Assembly: GCA_028564705.1 (NCBI GenBank) | Contig: JAPXFQ010000065.1 | Span: 1,302,001 to 1,366,000 of the forward strand | Reading direction: 5' to 3' | DNA from: Apricaphanius iberus | Taxonomy: Eukaryota > Chordata > Actinopteri > Cyprinodontiformes > Aphaniidae | Length of the DNA: 64,000 bases | Shown here: positions 3,267 to 56,981 of the stretch, piece after piece | How the letters are laid out: each line of letters opens with the position of its first letter | How positions within the stretch are numbered: the first letter of the stretch is position 1 | Notes under the pieces: model-generated | Told to the model about the DNA's origin: nothing | The model's input: the letters and a program-made list of their open reading frames with translations, nothing else | The model's database searches: none | Translations under genes and position numbers: made by a program

Positions 3267-4546
3267 CACTCAACAAAAATATAAATGCAACACTTTTGTT
3301 TCTGCTCCCTTTTTTCATGAGACCACCATTTGCCTCATGCAGTGCAACACATCTTATTCGCATAGAGTTTATCAGATTGTCAATTGTGGCCTGTGGAATG
3401 TTGGTCCACTCCTCTTCAATGGCTGTGCGAAGTTGGTGGATATTAGTGGGAACTGGTACACGCTGTCAAATATGCCGGTCAAGCACATCCCAAACATGCT
3501 CGATGGGTGACATGTCCGGTGAGTATGCTGGCCATTCAAGAACTGGGACAATTTCAGATTCCAAGATTTGTGTACAGATCCTTGCAACATGGGGCCGTGC
3601 ATAATCTTGCTGAAACATGAGGTGATGTTCATGGATGTATGGCACAACAATGGGCCTCAGGATCTCATCACGGTATCTCTGTGCATTCAAAATGCCATCG
3701 TTAAAAATGCACCTGTGTTCTTCGTCCATAACAGATGCCTGCCCATACCATAACCCCACCACCACCATCGGCCACTCGATCCACAACGTTGACATGAGCA
3801 AAGCGCTCACCACACGACGCCACACACGCTGTCTGCCATCTGACCTGAACAATGTAAACAGAGATTCATCCGTGAAGAGAAAACTTCTCCAACGTGCCAG
3901 ACGCCATCGAATGTGAGCATTTGCCCACTCAAGTCTGTTACGGCGACGAGTTTGTGCAGAAATTGTTTGGTTATGAAAACCAATTGTTTCAGCAGCTGTC
4001 TGAGTGGCTGGTCTCAGACGATCTTGGAGGTGAACCTGCTGGATATGGAGGTCCTGGGCTGGTGTGGTTACACGTGGTCTGCGGTTGTGAGGCCGGTTGG
4101 ATGTACTGCCATATTCTCTGAAACGCCTTCAGAGACGGCTTATGGTGGAGAAATGAACATTCAATGCACGAGCATCAGATCTGGTTGACATTCCTGCTGT
4201 CAGCATGCCAATTGCACGCTCCCTCAATGCTTGTGGCATCTGTGGCATTTTGCTCTGAGACAAAACTGCCAATTCCAGGGTGGCCTTTTATTGTGGGCAG
4301 TATAAGGTACACCTGTGCACTAATTACGAGGTCAGATCAGCATCTTGATGTGGCACACCTGTGAGGTGGGATGGATTATCTCAGCAAAGCAGAAGTGCTC
4401 ACTATCACACATTTAGACTGATTTGTGAACAATGTTTGAGAGAAATGGTAATATTGTGTATCCGGAATGAATTTTAGATCTTTAAGTCCATCTCATGAGA
4501 AATGGGAGCAGAAACAAAGGTGTTGTGTTTATATTTTTGTTGAGTG
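3267..4546 (-). mobile_element. Tc1-like transposon, full length but inactive
   Basis: The 1280-bp element begins CACTCAACAAAAATATAA and ends with the inverted copy, giving terminal inverted repeats of about 55 bp with a few mismatches. TA dinucleotides sit at 3265-3266 and 4547-4548, the expected Tc1 target duplication. It lies inside AT-rich DNA that interrupts LINE copy A. The coding strand is minus. Confidence 0.92.
3300..4248 (-). pseudogene. Tc1-like transposase with two nonsense codons
   Basis: The reading frame starts at ATG 4246-4248 (MPQMPQALRER...) and stays in one frame almost to the terminal repeat, interrupted only by TGA at 4129-4131 and TGA at 3466-3468. The DDE catalytic core is recognisable: FTDESLF carries the first Asp, FQQDYARPH the second, and SPDMSPIEHVWDVLDR the last acidic residue. 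The family acts as a cut-and-paste transposase that binds the terminal repeats and inserts at TA. Both stops lie where relatives would be expected to have Arg (CGA), consistent with CpG decay. No frameshift was found by eye. The last stretch runs into the inverted repeat without a clear stop. Confidence 0.88.
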
Positions 4547-4930: not shown

Positions 4931-5014
4931 TTTTTCCTGTTCTACCATCAGATTTCTTGGTATGCACTGGGACTCCAGGAAAGTTTCTGTGGTTCTCTTC
5001 AGCTTCGAAAGTTT
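4931..5014 (-). CDS. Candidate internal coding exon
   Basis: Minus-strand exon of 84 bases between acceptor TTAATCAG and donor GTAAGC. Read in the phase left by the upstream candidate exon (5110-5159), it gives an open hydrophilic peptide including FEAEENHRNFPGVPVHTKK. A second frame is also open, so coding status rests on splice-site fit and phase agreement with its neighbour. Not recognised as a named protein. Confidence 0.38.
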
Positions 5015-6230: not shown

Positions 6231-7827
6231 CACTACCGTTCAAAAGTTTGGGGTCACCCAAACAATTTTGTGTTTTCCATGAAAAATCACACTTATTCAC
6301 CACCATACGTTGTGAAATGAATGAAAAATAGAGTCTAGACATTGACAAGGTTAGAAATAATGATTTTTATTTGAAATAAGATTGTTTTTACATGAAACTT
6401 TGCTTTCATCAAAGAATCCTCCATTTGCAGCAATTACAGCATTGCAGACCTTTGGCATTCTAGCTGTTAATTTGTTGAGGTAATCTGGAGAAATTGCACC
6501 CCACGCTTCTAGAAGCAGCTCCCACAACTTCTTGCGTACCATACGGTCAAGCTGCTCCCACAACAGCTCAACGGGGTTCAAATCTGGTGACTGCGCTGGC
6601 CACTCCATTACCGATAGAATACCAGCTGCCTGCTTCTTCTCTAAATAGTTCTTGCACAATTTCGAGGTGTGTTTTGGGTCATTGTCCTGTTGGAGGATGA
6701 AATTGGCTCCAATCAAGCGCTGTCCACTGGGTATGGCATGGCGTTGCAAAATGGAGTGATAGCCTTCCTTATTCAGAATCCCTTTTACCCTGTACAAATC
6801 TCCCACCTTACCAGCACCAAAGCAACCCCAGACCATCACATTACCTCCACCATGCTTAACAGATGGCATCAGGCATTCTTCCAGCATCTTTTCAGTTGTT
6901 CTGCGTCTCACAAACGTTCTTCTTTGTGATCCAAACACCTCAAACTTGGATTCATCCGTCCACAGCACTTTTTTCCAGTCTTCCTCTGTCCAATGTCTGT
7001 GTTCTTTTGCCCATCTTAATCTTTTTCTTTTATTGGCCAGTCTCAGATATGGCTTTTTCTTTGCCACTCTGCCCTGAAGCCCAGAATCCCGCAGCCGCCT
7101 CTTCACTGTAGATGTTGACACTGGTGTTTTGCGGGTACTATTTAATGAAGATGCCAGTTGGGGACCTGTGAGGCGTCTGTTTCTCAAACTAGAGACTCTA
7201 ATGTACTTATCTTCTTGCTCAGTTGTGCAACGCGGCCTCCCACTTCTTTTTCTACTCTGGTTAGAGCCTGTTTGTGCTGTCCTCTGAAGGGAGTAGTACA
7301 CACCGTTGTAGGAAATCTTCAATTTCTTAGCAATTTCTCGCATGGAATAGCCTTCATTTCTAAGAACAAGAATAGACTGTCGAGTTTCAGATGAAAGTTC
7401 TCTTTTTCTGGCCATTTTGAGCGTTTAATTGACCCCACAAATGTGATGCTCCAGAAACTCAATCTGCTCAAAGGAAGGTCAGTTTTGTAGCTTCTGTACC
7501 GAGCTAAACTGTTTTCAGATGTGTGAACATGATTGCACAAGGGTTTTCTAATCATCAATTAGCCTTCTGAGCCAATGAGCAAACACATTGTACCATTAGA
7601 ACACTGGAGTGATAGTTGCTGGAAATGGGCCTCTATACACCTATGTAGATATTGCACCAAAAACCAGACATTTGCAGCTAGAATAGTCATTTACCACATT
7701 AGCAATGTATAGCGTGTGTTTCTTTAAAGTTAAGACTAGTTTAAAGTTATCTTCATTGAAAAGTACAGTGCTTTTCCTTCAAAAATAAGGACATTTCAAT
7801 GTGACCCCAAACTATTGAACGGTAGTG
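6231..7827 (-). mobile_element. Tc1-like transposon with intact transposase frame
   Basis: The 1597-bp element starts CACTACCGTTCAAAAGTTTG and ends with an imperfect inverted copy (...CAAACTATTGAACGGTAGTG), flanked by TA at 6229-6230 and 7828-7829. The terminal sequence resembles the Passport/PPTN group of fish Tc1 elements as I remember it. It carries one uninterrupted transposase frame on the minus strand. It sits inside the putative intron between the candidate exons at 5110-5159 and 8638-8811. Confidence 0.95.
6351..7415 (-). CDS. Tc1/mariner-family transposase, intact 354-residue frame
   Basis: A cut-and-paste DDE transposase, expected to act in the nucleus on the element's own inverted repeats and to insert at TA. 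The N-terminal region (about residues 1-110) holds two predicted helix-turn-helix units joined by a GRPR-type AT-hook (SGRPRCT, about residues 59-65). The catalytic core follows: first Asp in WTDESKFEVFG, second in FILQQDNDPKHTS, and the last acidic residue in SPDLNPVELLWEQLD, a DD34E-type layout. A Gly-rich box (GGGNVMVWGCF) lies between the first two. The length fits the family (about 340-350). The start MARKREL is a good Tc1 start. The segment after WEQLDRMVRKK looks shorter than in relatives I recall, which may be a small in-frame deletion. No stop or frameshift is present, unlike every other Tc1 copy in this window. Confidence 0.95.
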   Translation of the reverse strand: MARKRELSSETRQSILVLRNEGYSMREIAKKLKISYNGVYYSLQRTAQTGSNQSRKRSGRPRCTTEQEDKYIRVSSLRNRRLTGPQLASSLNSTRKTPVSTSTVKRRLRDSGLQGRVAKKKPYLRLANKRKRLRWAKEHRHWTEEDWKKVLWTDESKFEVFGSQRRTFVRRRTTEKMLEECLMPSVKHGGGNVMVWGCFGAGKVGDLYRVKGILNKEGYHSILQRHAIPSGQRLIGANFILQQDNDPKHTSKLCKNYLEKKQAAGILSVMEWPAQSPDLNPVELLWEQLDRMVRKKLWELLLEAWGAISPDYLNKLTARMPKVCNAVIAANGGFFDESKVSCKNNLISNKNHYF

Positions 7828-14811: not shown

Positions 14812-15998
14812 CAATTTGTCTATCTTTAAAACTAGGCTAAAAACTTTCCTCTTTGACAAAGCTTACAGTTAGAGATATGTTTATAGGTAGTTAGAGTCAG
14901 GTCAGACAGGTAGATAGGAAGAGACAGGTTAATGTTAGTAGTCAGGCAGAGTGTCAAAAGTTAGGAAGAGATAGGAAGAGGTAGAGTAGCTAGGTAGAGA
15001 TAGATTAATGTAAGCCAGGTAAAGATCCGGAGCCGGTCGCGGCTTACCGCCGCGGAAGAAATGTGCCCCACAGGGGCCAGCCAGCGCCGGAGAGGGGTCC
15101 CTCAATGGGATCCTCCCGCACAGTGCGGCCGCCCATTACCTGCCGGGTTGAATCCCCCGGGCAGACTGTGCGGACCCCACCCGTTTATCTCTTAAACGTT
15201 TCTCGCCCTCTTCAACTCTGTCCTCTCAGTTCTGTCTATTTTTCCTTAAGATAGTTGTCGACTATCGGTCTCGTGCCGGTATTTAGCCTTAGATGGAGTT
15301 TACCACCCACTTTGAGCTGCATTCTCAAACAACCCGACTCCGAGAAGACCCCGGCATGACGGGGGCCGTTACCGGCCCTACACCGTCCACGGGTCAGGAG
15401 GACTCAGACAGAGTGTTGGTAGCCAGGTCTCCTAGTAGCTAGGAGACAGGTTAATGTTAGTAGCTATGCTGCTTTAGGCTAGGCTGTTGGAGGACATTAT
15501 TAGGGTCTGTTCCTACTTTCTCTCCTACTTCTCCCCAACTGCATGATGTGCTGTCAATTCAAGCACTAACCTGTTTTCTATTATAGTAGGTGCTCCGGAT
15601 TAGCCCTGCTTGACGACCCTGACTAAGATGGCATTGCAGTGACGGAAAATTCTCCACGTCCTGCAACAAACTTCTGCATCAGTTCTATTGCTCTTTCTGT
15701 GTCTCTGTTATGTATTCTCCAAGCCACAGACGGTCGCGGCAGATAACCGCTTGTGCTGAGCCTGGTTCTGCCGGAGGTTTCTTCCTGTTAAAAGGGAGTT
15801 TTTCCTTCCCACTGTCGCTGCATGCTTGCTCAGTATGAGGGATTGCTGAGAATTCCACGACGCAATCTTCTGTGGTTCTGTAATTTCTACACTTAACATT
15901 GTATTGTAATAACTCTTTTTGTAAAGTGCCTTGAGATGACATCTGTTGTGAAATGGCGCTATATAAATAAACTGAATTGAATTGAATTGAATTGCTTT
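14812..15998 (+). mobile_element. L2/Rex-type LINE 3' end, copy C, with rRNA insert
   Basis: The plus-strand sequence begins in the end of the LINE coding region (CTAGGCTAAAAACTTTCCTC) and runs through the 3' UTR shared with copies A and B (TGGAGGACATTA, GGAGGTTTCTTCCTGTTAAA, TGCTTGCTCAGTATGAGGGA). It ends in the AT-rich tail ATAAATAAACTGAATTGAAT plus further ATTGA repeats. The 3' UTR contains a 28S rRNA fragment in the opposite orientation, plus several short repeats of a GTTAGTAG/AGGTAGAGA type before it. Confidence 0.75.
15024..15405 (-). pseudogene. 28S rRNA fragment (5' domain), antisense inside LINE
   Basis: Read on the minus strand, this matches large-subunit rRNA from its 5' third. 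Hallmarks include CCCGTGGACGGTGT, GGTAAACTCCATCTAAGG, CTAAATACCGGCACGAGACC, GGGTGGGGTCCGC, GATTCAACCCGGC and GCGACCGGCTCCGG, in the correct order. Divergence and small indels, for example in the usually conserved AGTTGAAAAGAACTTTG region, show that it is not functional. The 8-mer AGCCAGGT lies at 15013-15020 and again at 15421-15428 and could be a target duplication around a 400-bp insert. Confidence 0.9.
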
Positions 15999-35348: not shown

Positions 35349-36499
35349 AGGAGACATATCATGGAAAATCCACTTTTTTAGTCCTTAAATGAATGTAAAT
35401 GTGTATTTTGGGTGTTTAGGAGTGCAGACAACTTACATTTATTCTCTTCTGGTGCTGTGTTTATATCTTTACATTCTTTTTTGGTCATATTTTTCAGTCT
35501 GTTTAGTTTTCTCTATTCGCTATTACGTTTTCTTGTCTATTACGTTACAGCATTTGTTGTTGAACTGCCAAATAAGGTAATGGACTTCTGGGTAACCAAT
35601 TTCGTGAAGCCGCCATTTTTTTCTCCCCCACAGCGATTTTGTAGTCCAAGGTCAGTCATGTCAAAATTACAAGAAAGCAAGTCAAAATGTTCAGTTATTG
35701 GGTGTTTTAACCCACACAAATCCCTAAATCAACCCCCAGCATCAGAGCCTCTGAGAAGTGCCTGGTTAAATTTTATTTTTAGTGGAAATATACCGACATC
35801 CGTGGGGAAAGTTCTCCTCGTTTGCGCGAAGCACTTCAAGGACGAGTGCTTCAGAAACCTCGGTCTGTATCAGGAGGGATTTGCCAAAAAGACTTCGTCT
35901 GATTGAGGGGTCAGTTTCTTCTCTCCATGGAGACGAGGGACAAAGCAAAGCGGTAAGCTTCAAATAACACAAAAATGACAGTAAACTTTATTTTATACAT
36001 GAATGTTGTGTGTTGATATGTCGTACAGGCGATTGTTTTGTTGTAGCATTGTACATTCTGCTTCTGTTAGCAATGTGTGCTAGCTTTTAGCTGAGGATAT
36101 AACTGTACTGCATTCTTTGAATAAAATGATTGGGCTTTTTTTGCCGGTTTTTGTCGTGGGGTACACATGATGTACAGGAATTTAGCGATGATCGCTTAGC
36201 AATAAAACGTTTATCTGCCAGTAGTAATCGAATCGCTGCTATCAGACTACAAAAATGTCCGATGCAGCAGAACCCTCTGTAACCTGGAGGGGGCGGGGCA
36301 TGAAATGTTTCGCTTACATTTAAAGGGACCGCATCAAAATGAGTTGCTCTAAGATTCTCCTCAGAACGGTATAAGGAGGGTCTGTGGGGCTACAATAACA
36401 TGGAATTCAGACCAAACCACTGTGGTTCTACTTTACATAGACCACAAGAGAATGATTTACACGTCAAAAGGAAGGATTTAAAAGCATGATATATCTCCT
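35349..36499 (+). mobile_element. THAP-bearing DNA transposon remnant, TTAA target (Kolobok-like)
   Basis: The 1151-bp element starts AGGAGACATATCATG and ends CATGATATATCTCCT, which are inverted with one mismatch. It is followed by TTAA at 36500-36503 and preceded by TTAC at 35345-35348, a likely decayed TTAA duplication. It encodes a THAP zinc finger. TTAA targets together with THAP domains are known for the Kolobok superfamily, so that assignment is an inference. No DDE domain is visible. Confidence 0.65.
35658..35906 (+). pseudogene. THAP-type zinc finger exon, frameshifted
   Basis: From ATG 35658 the 82-residue frame starts MSKLQESKSKCSVIGC. It has the C2CH pattern of a THAP DNA-binding domain: Cys pair in CSVIGC, a Trp in LRSAWLNF, and the second pair in VCAKHF, followed by FRNLG and an aromatic-rich end. 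THAP domains bind DNA sequence-specifically and occur in P-element, Kolobok and host proteins. The frame ends at TGA 35904-35906 because of one extra A in the AAAAA run near 35885-35889. The next frame continues with RLRLIEGSVSSLHGDEGQ to a donor-like GCG|GTAAGC near 35950, so this was probably a first coding exon. Confidence 0.8.
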
Positions 36500-44400: not shown

Positions 44401-47240
44401 TTTTAAGTGCATCGTTACACTTAATGTTATTAACTACTTTGAATCACAAAAACAGGCCTGAGGTTGTATACCTCTGTCTGAAAACATCAGAATAAGCTAG
44501 TTTTTCTCCTAACAATTATATAACTATTTTATTTCAGAAACATTTCCCATCAGTTATTGTGAGCTCTACAAAGCTTCAAAATGAAGTTAGAAAAAGAGAA
44601 CTTTGAAGTTTACGAGAGTTGAACCATTGAAACCCTTGGATCAGCAAAGAAGCCAGCCCAATAATCTATTAAACGGTAGATCAGCTGAGAAAAACTGTAA
44701 ATATTTCCTCTTATATTTTTCTGGCCAGGCGCTGTCTTTTGGCCAAAGGTTCATGTTCTGTTGTAAACATGTATCTGAGTGCCATTATATTTTAGACTGA
44801 GGCTTCAGCGGCTCCTGTGTGGACCCTCTCTTCAGCCCTTTCGCGATGATCTATAGTAAGATGGATGATTCCCTGAAAACCACAATTTCCTGGTCTAATC
44901 CCAACTGGTGGCCAAAAGTTGGACGATCCAGCAGTGTGTGTGTGTATGTGTGTTAGCCATTTCAGTTGCAGCATTAAAATATTTGTAGCTTTTAGCAATA
45001 ATGATATTAATGGACAGTTGCCAACAGGCTGCGAAAACGGGACTGCCACACAATATGATAATGTTTACTTGCATTTAAAAGTGCACAAATTTATTAAAAA
45101 AGTGAGGCTTTATTCATGGACTATAGGCTGGATAATTCCATGAAAACATCTAACCCTTTAGGGGGAAAATGTAGATATAAAAAGATGCACACAGACCTAA
45201 ACTAATCCTTTGTTGAAGCACCTTTAAACTTAAGTTTAGCATCCAGTTTTGGTAGAAATCCTCACCATGCCACATCTTGACATGGTAATATTCCCACTCT
45301 TCACTTGGCAAGTTTAGAAATACCTCTGTAGTCCTGAGTTCGTCTCAAGCTACACTGAGATGAAACCAGGTGTAGCAGCAAAGATAATTGTCTAATTCAC
45401 AAGGAGCCAGTTTTTTAGGAAAAATGATCACGTTTGAAAACCAGTTCCCAGAGTGGAGAATTGTAAAAATGCCAACTCTACTATCTCTGTGTTTATGAGC
45501 TCTACAGCATTTCTTTTGATGATGTCACCGCCCCATTGCTATATGTGTCCGCATTCGCAACTCTATGATAAAGTAAAACAAACATGGCGCCGTATGGAGT
45601 TCTGGTCTTATTAGAGCAAATACTGACCTTAATATGGATCCTAAAATATGATTTACTATGGATCCGGAAAATCACATACACCATATACTTTTGAATAAAG
45701 CTCTCATTTGAAGCTGGATTTGTCGTGTTTGTAAATGCCTGATTAACTTGTCCGGACATCTCCATCAAGCGGAATACATTCTGCCAAGGAGCAGGAATTG
45801 GGTTCTGGCTCAGTCAGAGAAAGAAAGGGCAGGTGTACCAAGAAGTCTTGGTCAATCAGATAATTTCCAGATATTTTTTTTAATTTTAATGAAACCTTAA
45901 GTAAACAATTTTTTTTATATAAATAATTTTTAATTATTTGTTTTTTTTTTAGAATTACCTTGCTCATCACTTGCTATTAAGTTTTCTTATCTTAACTTGA
46001 AGTGCTAGTATCCCAGAGTCATCCACAATAAATTCTTATCCTGAGTAATTGACAGAAATAGTGTGATTCTTCTTTAAATACTGGGAGATTGCATAATAGA
46101 AATAAATATAACTCAGTATTCAGAATTAGTTTCTGGCAAGTCCAGTTTTGCTCATATTAGCCCTTAGGGCAAAATTGCAACTAATTACAAGAGTCTCTTT
46201 AACCTGGAGTGACTGAATACAAAATGAGCAATATTGTCCTGAACATGGGAAACACAGAAAAGTCACCTAACTGTAGTCTCTGGTAGACTGTCCAGAAGAT
46301 TGTCAGTCTATCAGTGTCATTCTCCACTGAAGTAAAGGTAGGAAGGCAGGCAGGCAGTTTCACAGCTTCATTGCCGAATGTGCATGAGTGTTTTTCATTT
46401 TCAATCAACCATCAAACGTGGCTAAGGCCATGCCACTGCATGGGGAAAACAACAGAATGAGCCCAAAGCCGCTGCAACCACCCTGAAAGTTTGGCAAGTT
46501 ATAGACACAGGACAAGCATTGATGGTAGAAAAAGCTTGGCATCACCAGAATCTGTACTTTCTTAGAGCCGTTCAGTGGACATATGAGATGAGCTTTTTTT
46601 CTCATAATTTTACAGCTTTTATTTCATTGATTCTGCAGCTGCACAGAGAATTCTGGGAACTAAAATCAGAATCCCCTATTTGTTTGTGTTGAACTGGTTT
46701 AGGGCTTTTCTGTGATGGAAGGTTGCTGGAGCAGAGTCCTGTGATCAACAGGCAAGCAGTTGGATATAATATGGACCATATGCTGTCTATTACACAAAAC
46801 AACGGCATCACACTTCACTAGCAGCATAGACTAAAACGTGCAAGCCTATTTAAAAATTCGAAAAAACAACTTCTGAGAATTAGAGCTACATCTTTAATTG
46901 ACGCTGTAAAAGTGCATCGTTTCCTTACCAAACTTGATTAACCCTGTTCGAGGTTACAGGAATGCTGGTGCTTATCTACAGCTGTGAATTGGCAAGTGGC
47001 AGGGTATATGTTGATTCTCTGTCCATCATAGAGACATATGGAAGAAGCAACACTTTAATAGCTAATGGCATTTTAATAATTAAAGGCTTAGATATGAAAA
47101 AATATAAATTCAACTCAGAAAGATTTTGATCTAACTGGTATTTTAACCTTTCACTGTTGCCTGTGGCAAGCCGAATGAGCATTTATTCTGATATCTTGAT
47201 ATCAGGCATAATTGTCATGAACATGCAAGCCATTTCTGTC
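41482..47240. other. 5.7 kb without supported genes
   Basis: The 41740-42070 stretch contains a run of C and CACCTCCTGGCGCCC-like sequence similar to a dispersed fish repeat I cannot name. At 42284, AGGGATGCAACTA followed by ACGATACCGATA looks like the left end of a hAT-like repeat; the perfect palindrome GCCTCATGAGGC at 43033-43044 may lie near its other end. Microsatellites occur at 43509-43551 (TA/CA) and 43833-43861 (ATT). No exon or RNA gene was identified. Confidence 0.4.
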
Positions 47241-47717
47241 CAGTAGTTAACTAGTAAGCCATGTTTGTGTGAACTAGTTAACTACTGAGGGTCAGAATAT
47301 GGACTCTAGTTAACTAGTGACAACAAAAATGCCCAATAGTTAAATAGTAACCATATTTTGGATTCATTAGTTAACTAGTGAGAGCTGGAAATGTCCACTA
47401 GTTAACTAGTAAAGGCAAAAATGCATACCAGTGAGCTAGTTGTAGGTTTTTCTTTCTCACTATTTAACTAGTGACAGCCAAAAATGTGCACAAGTTTACT
47501 AGTGAAGGCCTAACTCCTAACTAGTTAACTAGTTGGAGTAGGTCAATGTCACTAGTTAACTGGTGAAACATAAATTGATTACTTGCTAGCTAGTTGATGG
47601 CAGCAGTCTCACTAGTTAACTAGTTGATGCATCCATTGTCCAAACTAGTTAACTACTGAGGTCATAAATTATACTAGTAAACTAGTTCAAGCCTAAATTC
47701 ACGCTAGTCAGCTAGTG
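47241..47717. repeat. Phased palindrome array 1 (16 units, ~31-bp period)
   Basis: Variants of the 16-bp palindrome CACTAGTTAACTAGTG start at 47241, 47272, 47304, 47334, 47365, 47396, 47428, 47458, 47489, 47519, 47550, 47581, 47610, 47643, 47672 and 47702. Steps are 29-33 bases, averaging about 31. The intervening ~15 bases differ from unit to unit, with only a weak CAAAAATG-like similarity in some. Two units (47428, 47581) are more degenerate. No coding content is present. Confidence 0.95.
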
Positions 47718-47888
47718 GCGCAGAATTCTAATTAGGATGCGGAGAATTCCTCAAATTGCTTTGGCTTTCTATTGGCTCTATATGTCTAAGTAAAATATGA
47801 CAACCAATCACAGTGCAGAATTTCACAAAATCCCACCCAAAACATTTGCATGTGGCACACAAGTTAACATGCTGGCCAAAGGAACTTT

Positions 47889-48769
47889 AGCTAGTAAACT
47901 AGTGCCTTCAGTGTTACACTTACATGTAAACTAGTGAAGGCAGAACTGCTCACTAGTTAACTAGTAAAGACATAAATGCCCACTAGTTAACCAGTAAGGT
48001 GAAAAAAGTGTCACTAGTTTACTAGTGTGCCCCAAAACGCCCACTGGTGAACTAGTGATGGCTATTTCCATTCGACTAGTTAACTAGTGAGGTGAAAAAA
48101 CTATCAGTAGTTAACTAGCGAAGGCCATTTCAGCACCACTAGTTAACTAGTGAGAAGCCAAAATGGTCACTTGTTAACATGTAAAGGCAAAAATACCCCC
48201 TAGTTTACTAGTGAGGGTGTTGCGGGCCTTACTAGTCAACTAGTGGCATGCATATTTTGTTCACAAACAGAAAGAAGTGGAACATTTTTGTCCACTAGTT
48301 AACTAGTGGAACAATTGGAGTCTCACTAGTTTGCGCGTGTGGCAGTGAAGCAGCTCACTAGTTAAATAGTGCGCACAAGACACACACTAGTGGCTGTTTT
48401 TGGAGCTATCTAGTTCACATGTAATGCAAAAATGTGTTCTTACTAGTTAACTTGTGACAAATTGGCCTTCACTAGTTAACTAGTTGACATGTTTGGCTTT
48501 ACTAGTTCACTAGTAATGGAACAGGAGAGACTCACTAGTTAACTAGTGACCATATCTGCATTATAGTGTCTTTCAGTAGCTTATAGAGGACAAATTGAGC
48601 CTTACATGTTAGCTAGTGAAGACAAAACACTGTCCATAGTGAGAAAGCTGGAGAAAAATGTACCTCACACTTGTAAACTAGTGGAATTTGAATAAATACA
48701 CAAACGGCTGGCATTTTGTGCCACTAGTTAACTAGTGGGACTGCAACACTGGCCACTAGTTTACTAGTG
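47889..48769. repeat. Phased palindrome array 2 (~25 units)
   Basis: The same palindrome at about 31-base steps: 47889, 47921, 47951, 47981, 48012, 48042, 48074, 48105, 48137, 48168, 48198, 48230, 48293, 48324, 48356, then 48385 (contracted to CACTAGTG), 48408, 48441, 48470, 48500, 48533, 48603, 48668, 48722 and 48754. Gaps of about 63, 70, 65 and 54 mark lost or decayed units. Inverted CATTTGCATG (47843-47852, 48786-48795) and CCAATCA (47804-47810, 48817-48823) bracket the array. Confidence 0.95.
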
Positions 48770-49084
48770 AGCAATGTCGCACTTGCATGCAAATGAAGAA
48801 GGCGGAACAAGGATGTTGATTGGACCATTCAGGACTCAAAAACCTAGAATGCATGGCTGACTTCGTCAAGGCTGTTCTTTGAGCAAATTTTATAAATTAA
48901 GGTCGTTTGAGCATAAAAATATGTTTTGATAAATTTCTGGTGACAAAGTTGTGGTGCATTGCTGTAATCTCCGTTGAGTTAATGTGCACAGTCTTAGTCT
49001 TTCTGTTATTAGTCTGAAAAAGCCTGCAGTCTGAAAGCAGCAGCAGACAGCGTTTCTGTTGACGTAGAAGTGCTGATATTAATC

Positions 49085-49190
49085 AGTTACTGACCACTAG
49101 GGGTGTAGCACTGTGTGGTGGAGTAGTGAAAATCTGTGCTCTGCATCTTAGGGCTGGTGGATTGAATCCTGTCTGGGGAGTTTATTTTAA
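49085..49190 (+). mobile_element. Possible tRNA-derived SINE fragment
   Basis: GTGTGGTGGAGTAGTG is A-box-like, and GGTGGATTGAATCCTG about 45 bases downstream is B-box-like. Both deviate from consensus and there is no clear tail. Confidence 0.3.
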
Positions 49191-50475
49191 TTTAAAAAAC
49201 ATATTGATCTATGAGGTAACTTGCTTATGTTTTGTGTTCCTGCAAGAAAGAAAGCAATAAACGTCCGCGTCATAATTGTTAGAGTTGAGCCGGATAATGC
49301 ACTTTTGCCGAGTACAACTATCATATGAGTAATTAGGTATGTGACTAACTCAACCTGTCGATCCTGTCTGCATGGCACCTGAGGCATGAATGGTGTTTTT
49401 AGACTATAATAACTTTCTCGATATTTGTCACAGCACAATGATCCAGGTACCATTGGAAAGGTATTTTCAAGAAGCTCTTTCCAGTGGTATGGCACTTGCT
49501 GGGATCAGAGAAATTTGAATTTTTTTTTTGTCACATACCTAGAGTAGCCTAATACCAGTCAGTATCTGTGCTCGGATTGAATAAAAACAATTCTAGCTGT
49601 CTGCGTTCTCCGCAGCCACCAAACTCCCGAATTTCTCCTGATATCTGATGGCATTGCCTTTCATAAAGACTCTGTTTCTTATGAGAGGGATGGAGAATAA
49701 AACATGTCACCATTGCATTTTGCCATGGAAGATGCTATGGGGTAGCAACAGTTTCCTCATTCCAGTCATAAATAATCATCACCAGTTCGCGAAGTTTGCC
49801 GTTTTAATCCAAAATAGGTCACCTACGTGATTTGTGTACGTGACGTATGATGCAAAAGCCAGCTGCAAGTTTTCAGAATAGTTTTTATGTGACTGACAGA
49901 AGCTGTAGTTTCAATTACTATTTACACCCTCCCAGTAATTAAAGATTAAAAAACGTTTCGACCGACCTCACATGTAGTTTCCTTTTATTTTGGCTGCACG
50001 CTGGCAGTGGATATTTTTCCCCCACAGCTCTTTGGGCCCAAGAGTGCATCTATCGCGCTTATCTGTCAGAAAACGAAGTTACAGCTTAAAATCGACACTG
50101 AATGCTGCGCTGCGACAAAGCTAGTAGGCGGGGATTTCTCTGCCGGAAGATTTAAACATGAGCAGATCGTGGTTGGCTAGACAACGTCAAAGTCGGGTAA
50201 CATCACAACACTGAGACGTTTTGATTGGTTGCCGTGCTGCATCGTGAGCTTTAAGACCGGCAACAGTTCAACTAGCTGAACTTCTGCGTTGGTGACACTG
50301 ATGACACTAAGGGGTATCATGAACTATTCTTATACAGCAGACATAGCAGAAACCGAATGAATGTGTCCAGACTGAACAATCTCATTTTCATCTCTGTACT
50401 GTAAATGGACCAAATGTTGTCACCTTCCCGTCCCGCAAATTTGCGTAGATGCAGTTGAAGCAGTGGGCACCGGTT

Positions 50476-50513
50476 CCCTGCTTGCTAGTTGATCCACCAA
50501 CTAGAAAGCAGGG
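50476..50513. repeat. 38-base hairpin
   Basis: CCCTGCTT-G-CTAGTTG pairs with CAACTAG-A-AAGCAGGG around a 6-base loop, a 15-pair stem with one mismatch. Confidence 0.75.
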
Positions 50514-51044
50514 AAAATGGACTGAAATGCTGAACATTATCACAGTAGACTGTTTTTTGACAGCACATTGTGCTACGCTATGTCATATTTTCTGTTACAT
50601 TGATATAGGGATTGTTTTTAAAAATAGATTTTGTTTATTTTTATTTGACACCTTTATGAGCAAATATGTCTGCAAATGCAGTAGTTCACTTCGAGTGCAA
50701 AATGAACCTACCGCCTTGGTCATAGTGTAAATAAAGTTAACAGACGTGACAACAATTTTCATGTAGCCTGTTATACTCTTGGTCTGCTGTTGTGTTAACT
50801 TCTCCTAATAAAAATGCTTCTCAAAAAAAAAAAAATATATATATATTCAGTATACTGCAAGCTCTGCTTTCTGTATCACTATTGCATAGCAGTGTGTCAC
50901 TTTAACCATTAGGGGCACCCTTCAGGATCTGATCGTGAGGCTATGAACAGTACATTTACATTTTAGAATGGATGGGATTCCTGATACCCAATAGGAGTCT
51001 TCTACCGAACCTCTCATTAGAGTTTGCATAATGACTGTTTCTGG

Positions 51045-51484
51045 AACTAGTTAACTAGTGAGCTGCTTCACTGCCACACACGTAATCTAGTGAGACTTCA
51101 ATTGTTCCACTAGTTAACTAGTGGGCAAAAATGCTCCGCTTGTTTGTGTTTTTAGGTGTAACTAGTTTACTAGTGAACAAAATATGCATGCCACTGGTTA
51201 ATTAGTAAGACCCGCAACACCCTCACTAGTAAACTAGGGAGTATATTTGCCTTTACATGTTAACAAGTGACCATTTTGGCATCTCACTATTTAACTAGTG
51301 TTGCTGAAATGGCCTTTGCTAGTTAACTAGTGGGCGTTTTGGGGCCCACTGTAAACTAGTGACCATTTTTGCACCTCACTAGTTAACTAGTGGGCATTTA
51401 TGTCTTTACTAGTTAACTAGTTAGCAGTTCTGCCTTCACTAGTTTACATGTAAGTCTAACACTGAAGCCACTAGTTTACTAGCT
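51045..51484. repeat. Phased palindrome array 3 (14 units), inverted copy of array 2
   Basis: Units start at 51045, 51077, 51108, 51160, 51192, 51224, 51254, 51285, 51317, 51346, 51377, 51407, 51437 and 51469. The reverse complement, spacers included, follows 47883-48371 unit by unit; shared spacers include GAAGGCAGAACTGCT, GTGAGGGTGTTGCGGG and GGCAGTGAAGCAGCTCAC. Differences are mostly whole-unit losses or gains. Confidence 0.95.
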
Positions 51485-51707
51485 AAAGAACAATATCACA
51501 ATCATAGATGCTTCCCAAGTAACATAACCCCACCCTCCACCTACCCTGTGTTCCACCCATTTAATCCCATGCTTCCTACCAACACACAGACCAACGTTAC
51601 CACCAATAAAACACAAGGCAAAGCAAGTCAAAGCATAGAAAGCAAGGGACATCACAAAACCAGTGAGCTGGAAATAAGTAAATAAATATGTATACAGACC
51701 ACATATA

Positions 51708-56031: not shown

Positions 56032-56981
56032 CGGTGCTTACACACCGAACACGATAGACGCGACCAGAGAGTCCAATTTAAATGTAAAGTAAATGGAGGA
56101 GCACGATTAAGAGCGAATTGGGATCCCGCGACACTTCAGAAGCAGATTTGCATCACAAAAAAGCTTTTCTGCCTGATTTACGCGACTAAGTAGTGCGGCT
56201 GATGCGTTTCAGGCGCGACCCAAAATATGCGCTGCATTTAATGTGTGCCAAGTCGCGCAATAACAACCATCAGCTGAGGGGTGTCAGTGATGTCGTGACT
56301 AAATGGAGTCACAGCATCAGCAGGACATGTAAACTGATAAACACCATAGCTAATCACTCTGAGCTACATGACATCAGCTGTTTTCAATACAGAGACAGGA
56401 ATAAAAAAATAAACATTATAAATAGGTTAAACTTTTAGACAGCAATGCTCTTAAGAGCTTTGTGGGTGGCTCTTAAAAGAGCCGTTGTGGCCTCAAAACA
56501 GCTTCCTCACCCGGACACCCAGACCCGGTAATGTCTCCGTCCCACGCCGCTCACATATAAACTTTTACTAACAGCAGACAGATGGACAGCCGCTCATCTT
56601 GGTAGTTGGTGTGGCGGCGGGGCAAAGCTTGGACCTGCGTGACACAAACTGGGCGAGGAGCCGGGGTATTTATTGATCCTTCCACTGCTGCTCGACTGGG
56701 TCTACCCCTGCAAGAGCGGTCCTGACATTTAATATGGTGAGCTCATAGACCAGAGTCCACTGGGAGCTCCTGGAGGGTTGGGGGAAGGAGGGAGGAGGAG
56801 GGCAGCAGAGCGGTCACGGCAAGGATACTTCCACATTTCCACTTTACGCGCGTGAAAACGGCATATTTTAAAGTGTGGCCAGTTCGCTTTGGATGCGCTT
56901 CAAGGTGCAAATGTTGTGACGACCAGCTAGGGGCGTGTCACGCTTTTTGGTTGCGTCTATCGCGTCGGTGTGTAAGCACCG
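56032..56981. mobile_element. Nonautonomous Harbinger-like element, TAA target duplication
   Basis: The ends CGGTGCTTACACACCGA...CGATAGACGC...ACC are inverted over about 35 bases. The first 17 are perfect. TAA flanks both sides (56029-56031 and 56982-56984), the 3-bp target duplication typical of PIF/Harbinger. The GC-rich interior has no transposase but contains a histone-type 3' stem-loop on the minus strand. Confidence 0.75.
56462..56483 (-). promoter_or_regulatory. Histone-mRNA-type 3' stem-loop
   Basis: The minus strand reads GGCTCTTTTAAGAGCC (six-pair stem, TTTA loop) preceded by ACAAC and followed by ACCCAC, exactly the form that ends replication-dependent histone mRNAs and is bound by SLBP. 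No histone coding sequence is recognisable upstream, so this is probably a captured or coincidental 3' end. Confidence 0.65.

Follow-up and report, generated by a model that had tools for sequence, protein, structure and literature searches.

Sola2 transposons carry a 4-bp target-site duplication (TSD) at the element ends, piggyBac and piggyBat target TTAA, and the IS3EU superfamily of Repbase is grouped with GingerRoot. According to the excerpts of the literature on which our comparisons draw, IS3EU elements have TA..TA termini and a TSD that is usually 6 bp long (PMC10045372); those of rust fungi possess terminal inverted repeats (TIRs) of more than 30 bp ending in TAYGG..CCRTA, and EnSpm/CACTA families show CAC..GTG ends with a 3-bp TSD (PMC12730594). 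The Foldback-like element Tm1 of root-knot nematodes is built from a tandem unit of about 14 bp, has a 9-bp TSD, and also exists in forms resembling miniature inverted-repeat transposable elements (MITEs) (PMC3169594). In piggyBac and piggyBat, the transposase dimer uses two cysteine-rich domains to bind palindromes near the ends, of which there are up to three per end, and subterminal sites can restrain activity (PMC11707139). Here we report on a palindrome-rich block in 64 kb of DNA from the fish Apricaphanius iberus (GCA_028564705.1, contig JAPXFQ010000065.1, positions 1,302,001 to 1,366,000; this whole stretch of 64,000 nucleotides is referred to as the window). The block, at window 47162-51488, is one copy, truncated on its right side, of a multicopy element resembling a transposon, whose family we read as an IS3EU-type element with Foldback-like, palindrome-built ends. 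The retrieved literature excerpts on IS3EU, on tandem or palindromic TIR arrays and on palindromes in fish TIRs give no account of this type of array, a result that falls short of proving its absence; the palindrome letters themselves match a text on MCM loading, the retrieved part of which describes no such array type.

The multicopy nature of the element became apparent in searches of the genome (1.195 Gb in 1979 contigs). The 16-bp palindrome CACTAGTTAACTAGTG occurs with at most one mismatch at 5011 places, against 12 for a reversed control, and the terminus TAYGGCAAGCCGANTGAGCATTTATTCTGATATC was found with up to three mismatches at 366 places (179 + 187), the control giving 0; the terminus loci taken up for analysis were among the matches listed. 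Both ends could be read in 16 pairs of facing ends, each lying within about 10 kb, and they exhibit the TA..TA form (TAYGG..CCRTA) with single changes in some of them (e.g., TATAG, TGTGG, AATGG). A 6-bp duplication directly outside TA..TA is exact in five of these 16 pairs (CTTCAC, CACCAG, ATCCCT, TTGCTG, TTATTT) and carries one mismatch in a further five. When left and right flanks of different elements were compared, 240 pairs yielded no exact and only one one-mismatch duplication. Since it is the adjoining outer 6 bp that are duplicated, the TA is part of the element, and a 2-bp TA duplication of the Tc1/mariner type was hence rejected as an interpretation of these ends.

Fourteen elements with both ends, 10 of which are among the end pairs whose 6-bp duplication has at most one mismatch, range from 237 to 5760 bp and contain 3 to 73 palindromes. 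Six of them (C117, C169, C268, C298, C94, C262) were retrieved by the terminus pattern alone, and the palindromes that they carry are therefore not an artefact of the search. Of 65 end readings, 51 place the start of the first palindrome 79 bp from the T of the terminal TA, 11 place it at other offsets and three have no site in reach; these readings cover all loci from L006 on, and some ends were read twice where short and long loci overlap. Among loci found by the terminus only, 17 of the 19 readings show the 79-bp offset, corresponding to 11 of the 13 distinct ends, and a smaller count that skips the short loci gives 24 of 27 ends. Larger copies share a common centre, with roughly 86-95% identity in the aligned pieces, and the inverted repeat of the copy L006 aligns over 1259 bp at 87.6%.

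In the window, the element is laid out as follows.

47162..47240, plus strand: outer left end, starting TGTGGCAAGCCGAATGAGCATTTATTCTGATATC..., 79 bp before the first palindrome; the terminus is placed at C37:1349162, where homology to other copies begins.
47241..47717, plus strand: left TIR, outer palindrome array, which comprises 16 sites at steps of 29-33 bp; recognised by palindrome matches and aligning to other copies.
47718..47884, plus strand: link joining the outer and inner arrays, containing a single weak site at 47858 (5 mismatches); in other copies this stretch belongs to the TIR.
47885..48769, plus strand: left TIR, inner palindrome array with 24 sites (23 at no more than 5 mismatches) and an inverted match to 51046-51488.
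48770..51044, no strand assigned: element centre without a transposase open frame; a related centre is present in other copies.
51045..51488, minus strand: right TIR, inner palindrome array with 14 sites, an inverted counterpart of the inner array on the left.
51488..51489, no strand assigned: truncation point, the outer right TIR of other copies being missing here; L006, L052 and L055 go on as TTCCTTTGGCCAGC..., the window as AACAATATC....

The window's own left terminus reads TGTGG, a change of TA to TG relative to the TAYGG of other copies. The outermost array belongs to the left TIR, as other copies run outward from 47885 through the link and a second array to the common terminus (11 stretches of about 10 kb each); the alignments of L006 and L007 pass through the link, and its inverted start (...TTCCTTTGGCCA) continues the right TIRs of L006, L008, L009, L010 and L016. 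About 440 bp of TIR are retained in the window. Of the four longest ungapped pieces in which its two inner arrays pair, three are 91-94% complementary and the fourth 75%; the right array lacks 63 bp, corresponding to two units, and 21 bp are missing from the left one. About 216 bp at 49334-49549 are not present at the matching place in L007 and L010 and may be a later small insertion.

All 43 near-copies of CACTAGTTAACTAGTG that were detected in the 64 kb at up to three mismatches lie inside 47241-51484, compared with a chance level of 0.35 on average and 2 at most in 100 dinucleotide shuffles. An earlier note, based on a model's inspection of the letters of the window, had described about 55 palindrome copies, at least six of them exact, at 29-33-base steps in three arrays, and the counts bear this out: there are 54 non-overlapping sites at no more than five mismatches, six exact copies, steps mostly of 29-33 bp with a unit now and then skipped, and three arrays (47241-47717, 47889-48769 and 51045-51484), although the note had missed that the third is the second inverted and that the element begins as early as 47162, 79 bp ahead of the first palindrome. 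Of the 334 gaps of up to 200 bp counted in the window plus 11 other loci, 226 measure 29-33 bp and 52 measure 55-70 bp. The feature that the note had singled out is real and unusual, and the kind of explanation that it had envisaged is supported in part, but not the idea of a free-standing array, since the arrays are the TIRs of an element. That the block might be an ordinary minisatellite or satellite array without a tie to a mobile element has its tandem period of about 30 bp in its favour; this notion is practically untenable, because the inverted TIR layout, the common termini, the TSDs and the dispersal over many contigs contradict it, the termini and TSDs refuting it outright. An evenly conserved unit lacking TIRs and TSDs is not what is found here.

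With respect to its superfamily, the element combines TAYGG..CCRTA termini, a 6-bp TSD and TIRs longer than 30 bp, the features by which IS3EU is described. We consider it very unlikely that it is instead of the Foldback, Galileo, CACTA or Sola2 type. Its long TIRs composed of tandem repeats do have the structure typical of Foldback elements and resemble those of the Foldback-like Tm1 (PMC3169594), but the TSD measures 6 bp rather than the 9 bp of Tm1 and of MULE-type Foldback elements, and rather than the 3 bp that accompany CAC..GTG ends in EnSpm/CACTA families as excerpted (PMC12730594), and the termini are TA..TA. A GAAC match at 47882-47885 and 51488-51491 at first resembled a 4-bp TSD of the Sola kind. 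It is situated at the truncation and not at the element ends, and the true ends give 6 bp instead of the 4 bp of Sola2. A whole Sola2-like element at 47885-51488 with a GAAC duplication was accordingly discarded: other copies extend outward from that point, and the match is therefore a chance occurrence at the truncation.

It should be noted that the IS3EU label rests on the termini, the TSD and the TIR length because the copies read revealed no transposase. The sole open frame noted in the centre of the element (48770..51044) encodes 102 amino acids and has no Pfam match. A Pfam scan of 16 frames, 15 of them within the element or next to an array and one outside, detected no transposase domain, and the single match above the cut-off was an RNase H domain in a nested retroelement. 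The element is apparently non-autonomous.

How the palindromes relate to the intervening spacers bears on the question of whether a protein reads them. The 16-bp palindrome consensus is two-fold symmetric, and in 45 window units, 12 of which are right-arm units homologous to left-arm units, the mean information per column amounts to 1.33 bits in the palindrome and 0.30 bits in the spacer. The per-column comparison that the earlier note had proposed therefore came out as it had anticipated; its picture of conserved sites set in divergent spacers is right in that the palindromes are much better kept, but needs amending in that the spacers retain a weak shared sequence (0.264 bits, compared with 0.096 under the null and at most 0.200 in 2000 random draws from the element centre). 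Because of this weak common sequence, the units can be traced to tandem repeats of about 31 bp. Helical phasing, likewise put forward in the note, is compatible with a spacing that stays near 31 bp; the lag-1 spacing correlation is weak, however (-0.264 against a shuffle mean of -0.18 with a standard deviation of 0.045, 3.2% of the shuffles being as low), and was obtained on related copies. Per-column deviations are correlated about the dyad with r values from 0.70 to 0.97 in six single left arms, much of the mirror symmetry being carried by the outermost columns; a value of 0.99, which results from pooling both orientations, was not used. The least variable columns are G6, T7 and C11, whereas A10, the mirror position of T7, varies more.

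We favour, with a probability of roughly 0.7, the reading that the block is a right-truncated copy of a multicopy DNA element, likely a non-autonomous IS3EU element, and that its palindromes are predicted to be bound by a transposase or helper protein acting as a dimer. Several observations weigh against it. The open frames of the copies read include no transposase; one of the 16 end pairs has two mismatches in its 6-bp duplication, and five have no 6-bp TSD (C117, C496, C452, C1528, L007); and the eight counted elements beyond the six found by terminus alone were retrieved with palindrome-bearing queries. Between copies, matched units differ by 5.8% substitution in the palindrome, 9.8% in the spacer and 6.7% in non-array parts of the arms, so that the palindromes change more slowly than the spacers, which speaks for the favoured reading, but almost as fast as the non-array TIR, which speaks against it; blocks shorter than 20 bp or below 75% identity were dropped from these rates, which are descriptive because the six arms are related. 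The mirror correlation falls to 0.40-0.84 once columns 1 and 16 are removed, and compensatory half-site changes are not above chance. The dimer site postulated in the earlier note fits the symmetry, the conservation and the spacing of about 31 bp, but not the lack of compensatory changes and the modest mirror symmetry, and it remains a prediction from sequence; of its two candidate readers, a host factor and a transposase, the latter fits best because the arrays are the TIRs of a transposon.

The findings on substitution rates, half-sites and mirror symmetry speak at the same time for the possibility that the arrays are passive, that is, that a 31-bp unit was tandemly duplicated in the TIR by slippage or hairpin snap-back and palindromes were favoured merely for folding, with no protein reading them. 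The residual common sequence of the spacers and the whole-unit 63-bp deletion that separates the two TIRs also agree with such passive tandem growth, which we regard as the main rival and as a real, if clearly lesser, possibility. It does not readily explain why conservation from unit to unit is focused on 16 bp, why most ends keep the offset at 79 bp, or why the first palindromes are retained even in the 237-bp copy, the smallest two-ended element, which has kept three. Alternatively, the palindromes could be sites for a host chromatin or transcription factor that serves the expression, replication timing or silencing of the element and not transposition itself. A conserved, dyad-symmetric site in phased arrays would suit this role, and there is a precedent in the family of repeats in oriP of Epstein-Barr virus (EBV), a viral plasmid origin in which about 20 palindromes, spaced 30 bp apart, act as a tethering and replication array for a viral dimer. 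Such a role is nonetheless unlikely, given that the arrays reside inside this element family in the loci read and that in most ends the palindromes start at a constant distance from the terminus; a host motif was not identified, though no tool search for one was made.

Returning to palindromes as sites for a transposase or its helper, we envisage that an IS3EU transposase would be supplied in trans from elsewhere in the genome, cut at the TA termini and paste with a 6-bp stagger. Dimers of the transposase or of a partner, bound to palindromes about three helical turns apart, would be aligned along each end and would bring the two ends together, and internal deletions would yield the short copies. 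The arrays could help or hinder transposition, because subterminal sequences restrain activity in piggyBac and piggyBat as described in the excerpted part of PMC11707139. More speculatively, and in our view rather doubtfully, the ends in this IS3EU lineage may have evolved into arrays of helically phased dimer sites, as many as about 70 in one element, along which the transposase or a dedicated partner would assemble in the manner of a filament, providing both cooperative end pairing and a transposase-dose-sensing sink spread over about 5000 sites.

Some further observations concern individual copies. A diverged second terminus (TGGCCAGCTGCATGAGCATTTATTCTGATATAT... or a variant of it), with a comparable flank before it, lies internally in L006 (about 8071), L008 (about 7396), L012 (about 4684) and L007 (about 7119) on the minus strand and in L013 (4282) and L014 (4142) on the plus strand; an end-plus-array module seems to have been duplicated inside the TIR. 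The 10.1-kb copy on C1528, whose two flanks share no TSD, harbours a nested retroelement piece with the RNase H domain mentioned above (L056 2259-3092, E 3.1e-7). Two such palindromes, with one mismatch each and 39 bp apart, are found without arrays in the viral contig L001 (1960-2014). Elsewhere in the window there are an uninterrupted Tc1-type transposase of 354 amino acids (6351-7415, minus strand; HTH_Tnp_Tc3_2 + DDE_3), a DDE_3 fragment (3466-3852), a fragment of eukaryotic large-subunit ribosomal RNA (14875-15567, minus strand; Rfam RF02543, 90.1 bits) and a THAP-domain open frame (35412-35906, plus strand; E 2.2e-5), possibly a relic of a P element or host gene. A histone 3' stem-loop (RF00032, 36.2 bits) is present at 56443-56488 on the minus strand; none of the listed open frames, all of 100 amino acids or more, was recognised as a histone.

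We know of no biochemistry on the recognition of IS3EU ends. Ends that consist mostly of conserved palindromes offer a predicted candidate for the recognition site, in most cases at 79 bp from the cut; with 3 to 15 sites, the short copies constitute a natural series through which questions of dose and phasing can be addressed. The family combines a structure like that of Foldback elements with termini and a TSD of the IS3EU type, and it has added about 5000 potential dimer sites to one genome.

Among the known systems, IS3EU, as characterised in the excerpted descriptions, is matched in its TA..TA termini (TAYGG..CCRTA), 6-bp TSD and TIRs of more than 30 bp; here, by contrast, no transposase was found, and the TIRs comprise more than 1.2 kb of phased palindromes. 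With the Foldback types (Tm1, and FB and Galileo of Drosophila), so far as the excerpts go, the element shares long composite TIRs of variable length, short tandem repeats and MITE-like forms, but Tm1 has a unit of about 14 bp and a 9-bp TSD as opposed to the 31-bp unit with its 16-bp palindrome and the 6-bp TSD found here. The phased palindromic dimer sites of EBV oriP offer an analogy alone, oriP being a viral plasmid origin without TIRs or a TSD. The closest experimental parallel among those considered, by way of how such ends might work, is that of piggyBac and piggyBat, in which palindromic sites likewise lie near the ends, although they number at most three per end, compared with up to 73 per element and a 6-bp TSD in the A. 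iberus family.

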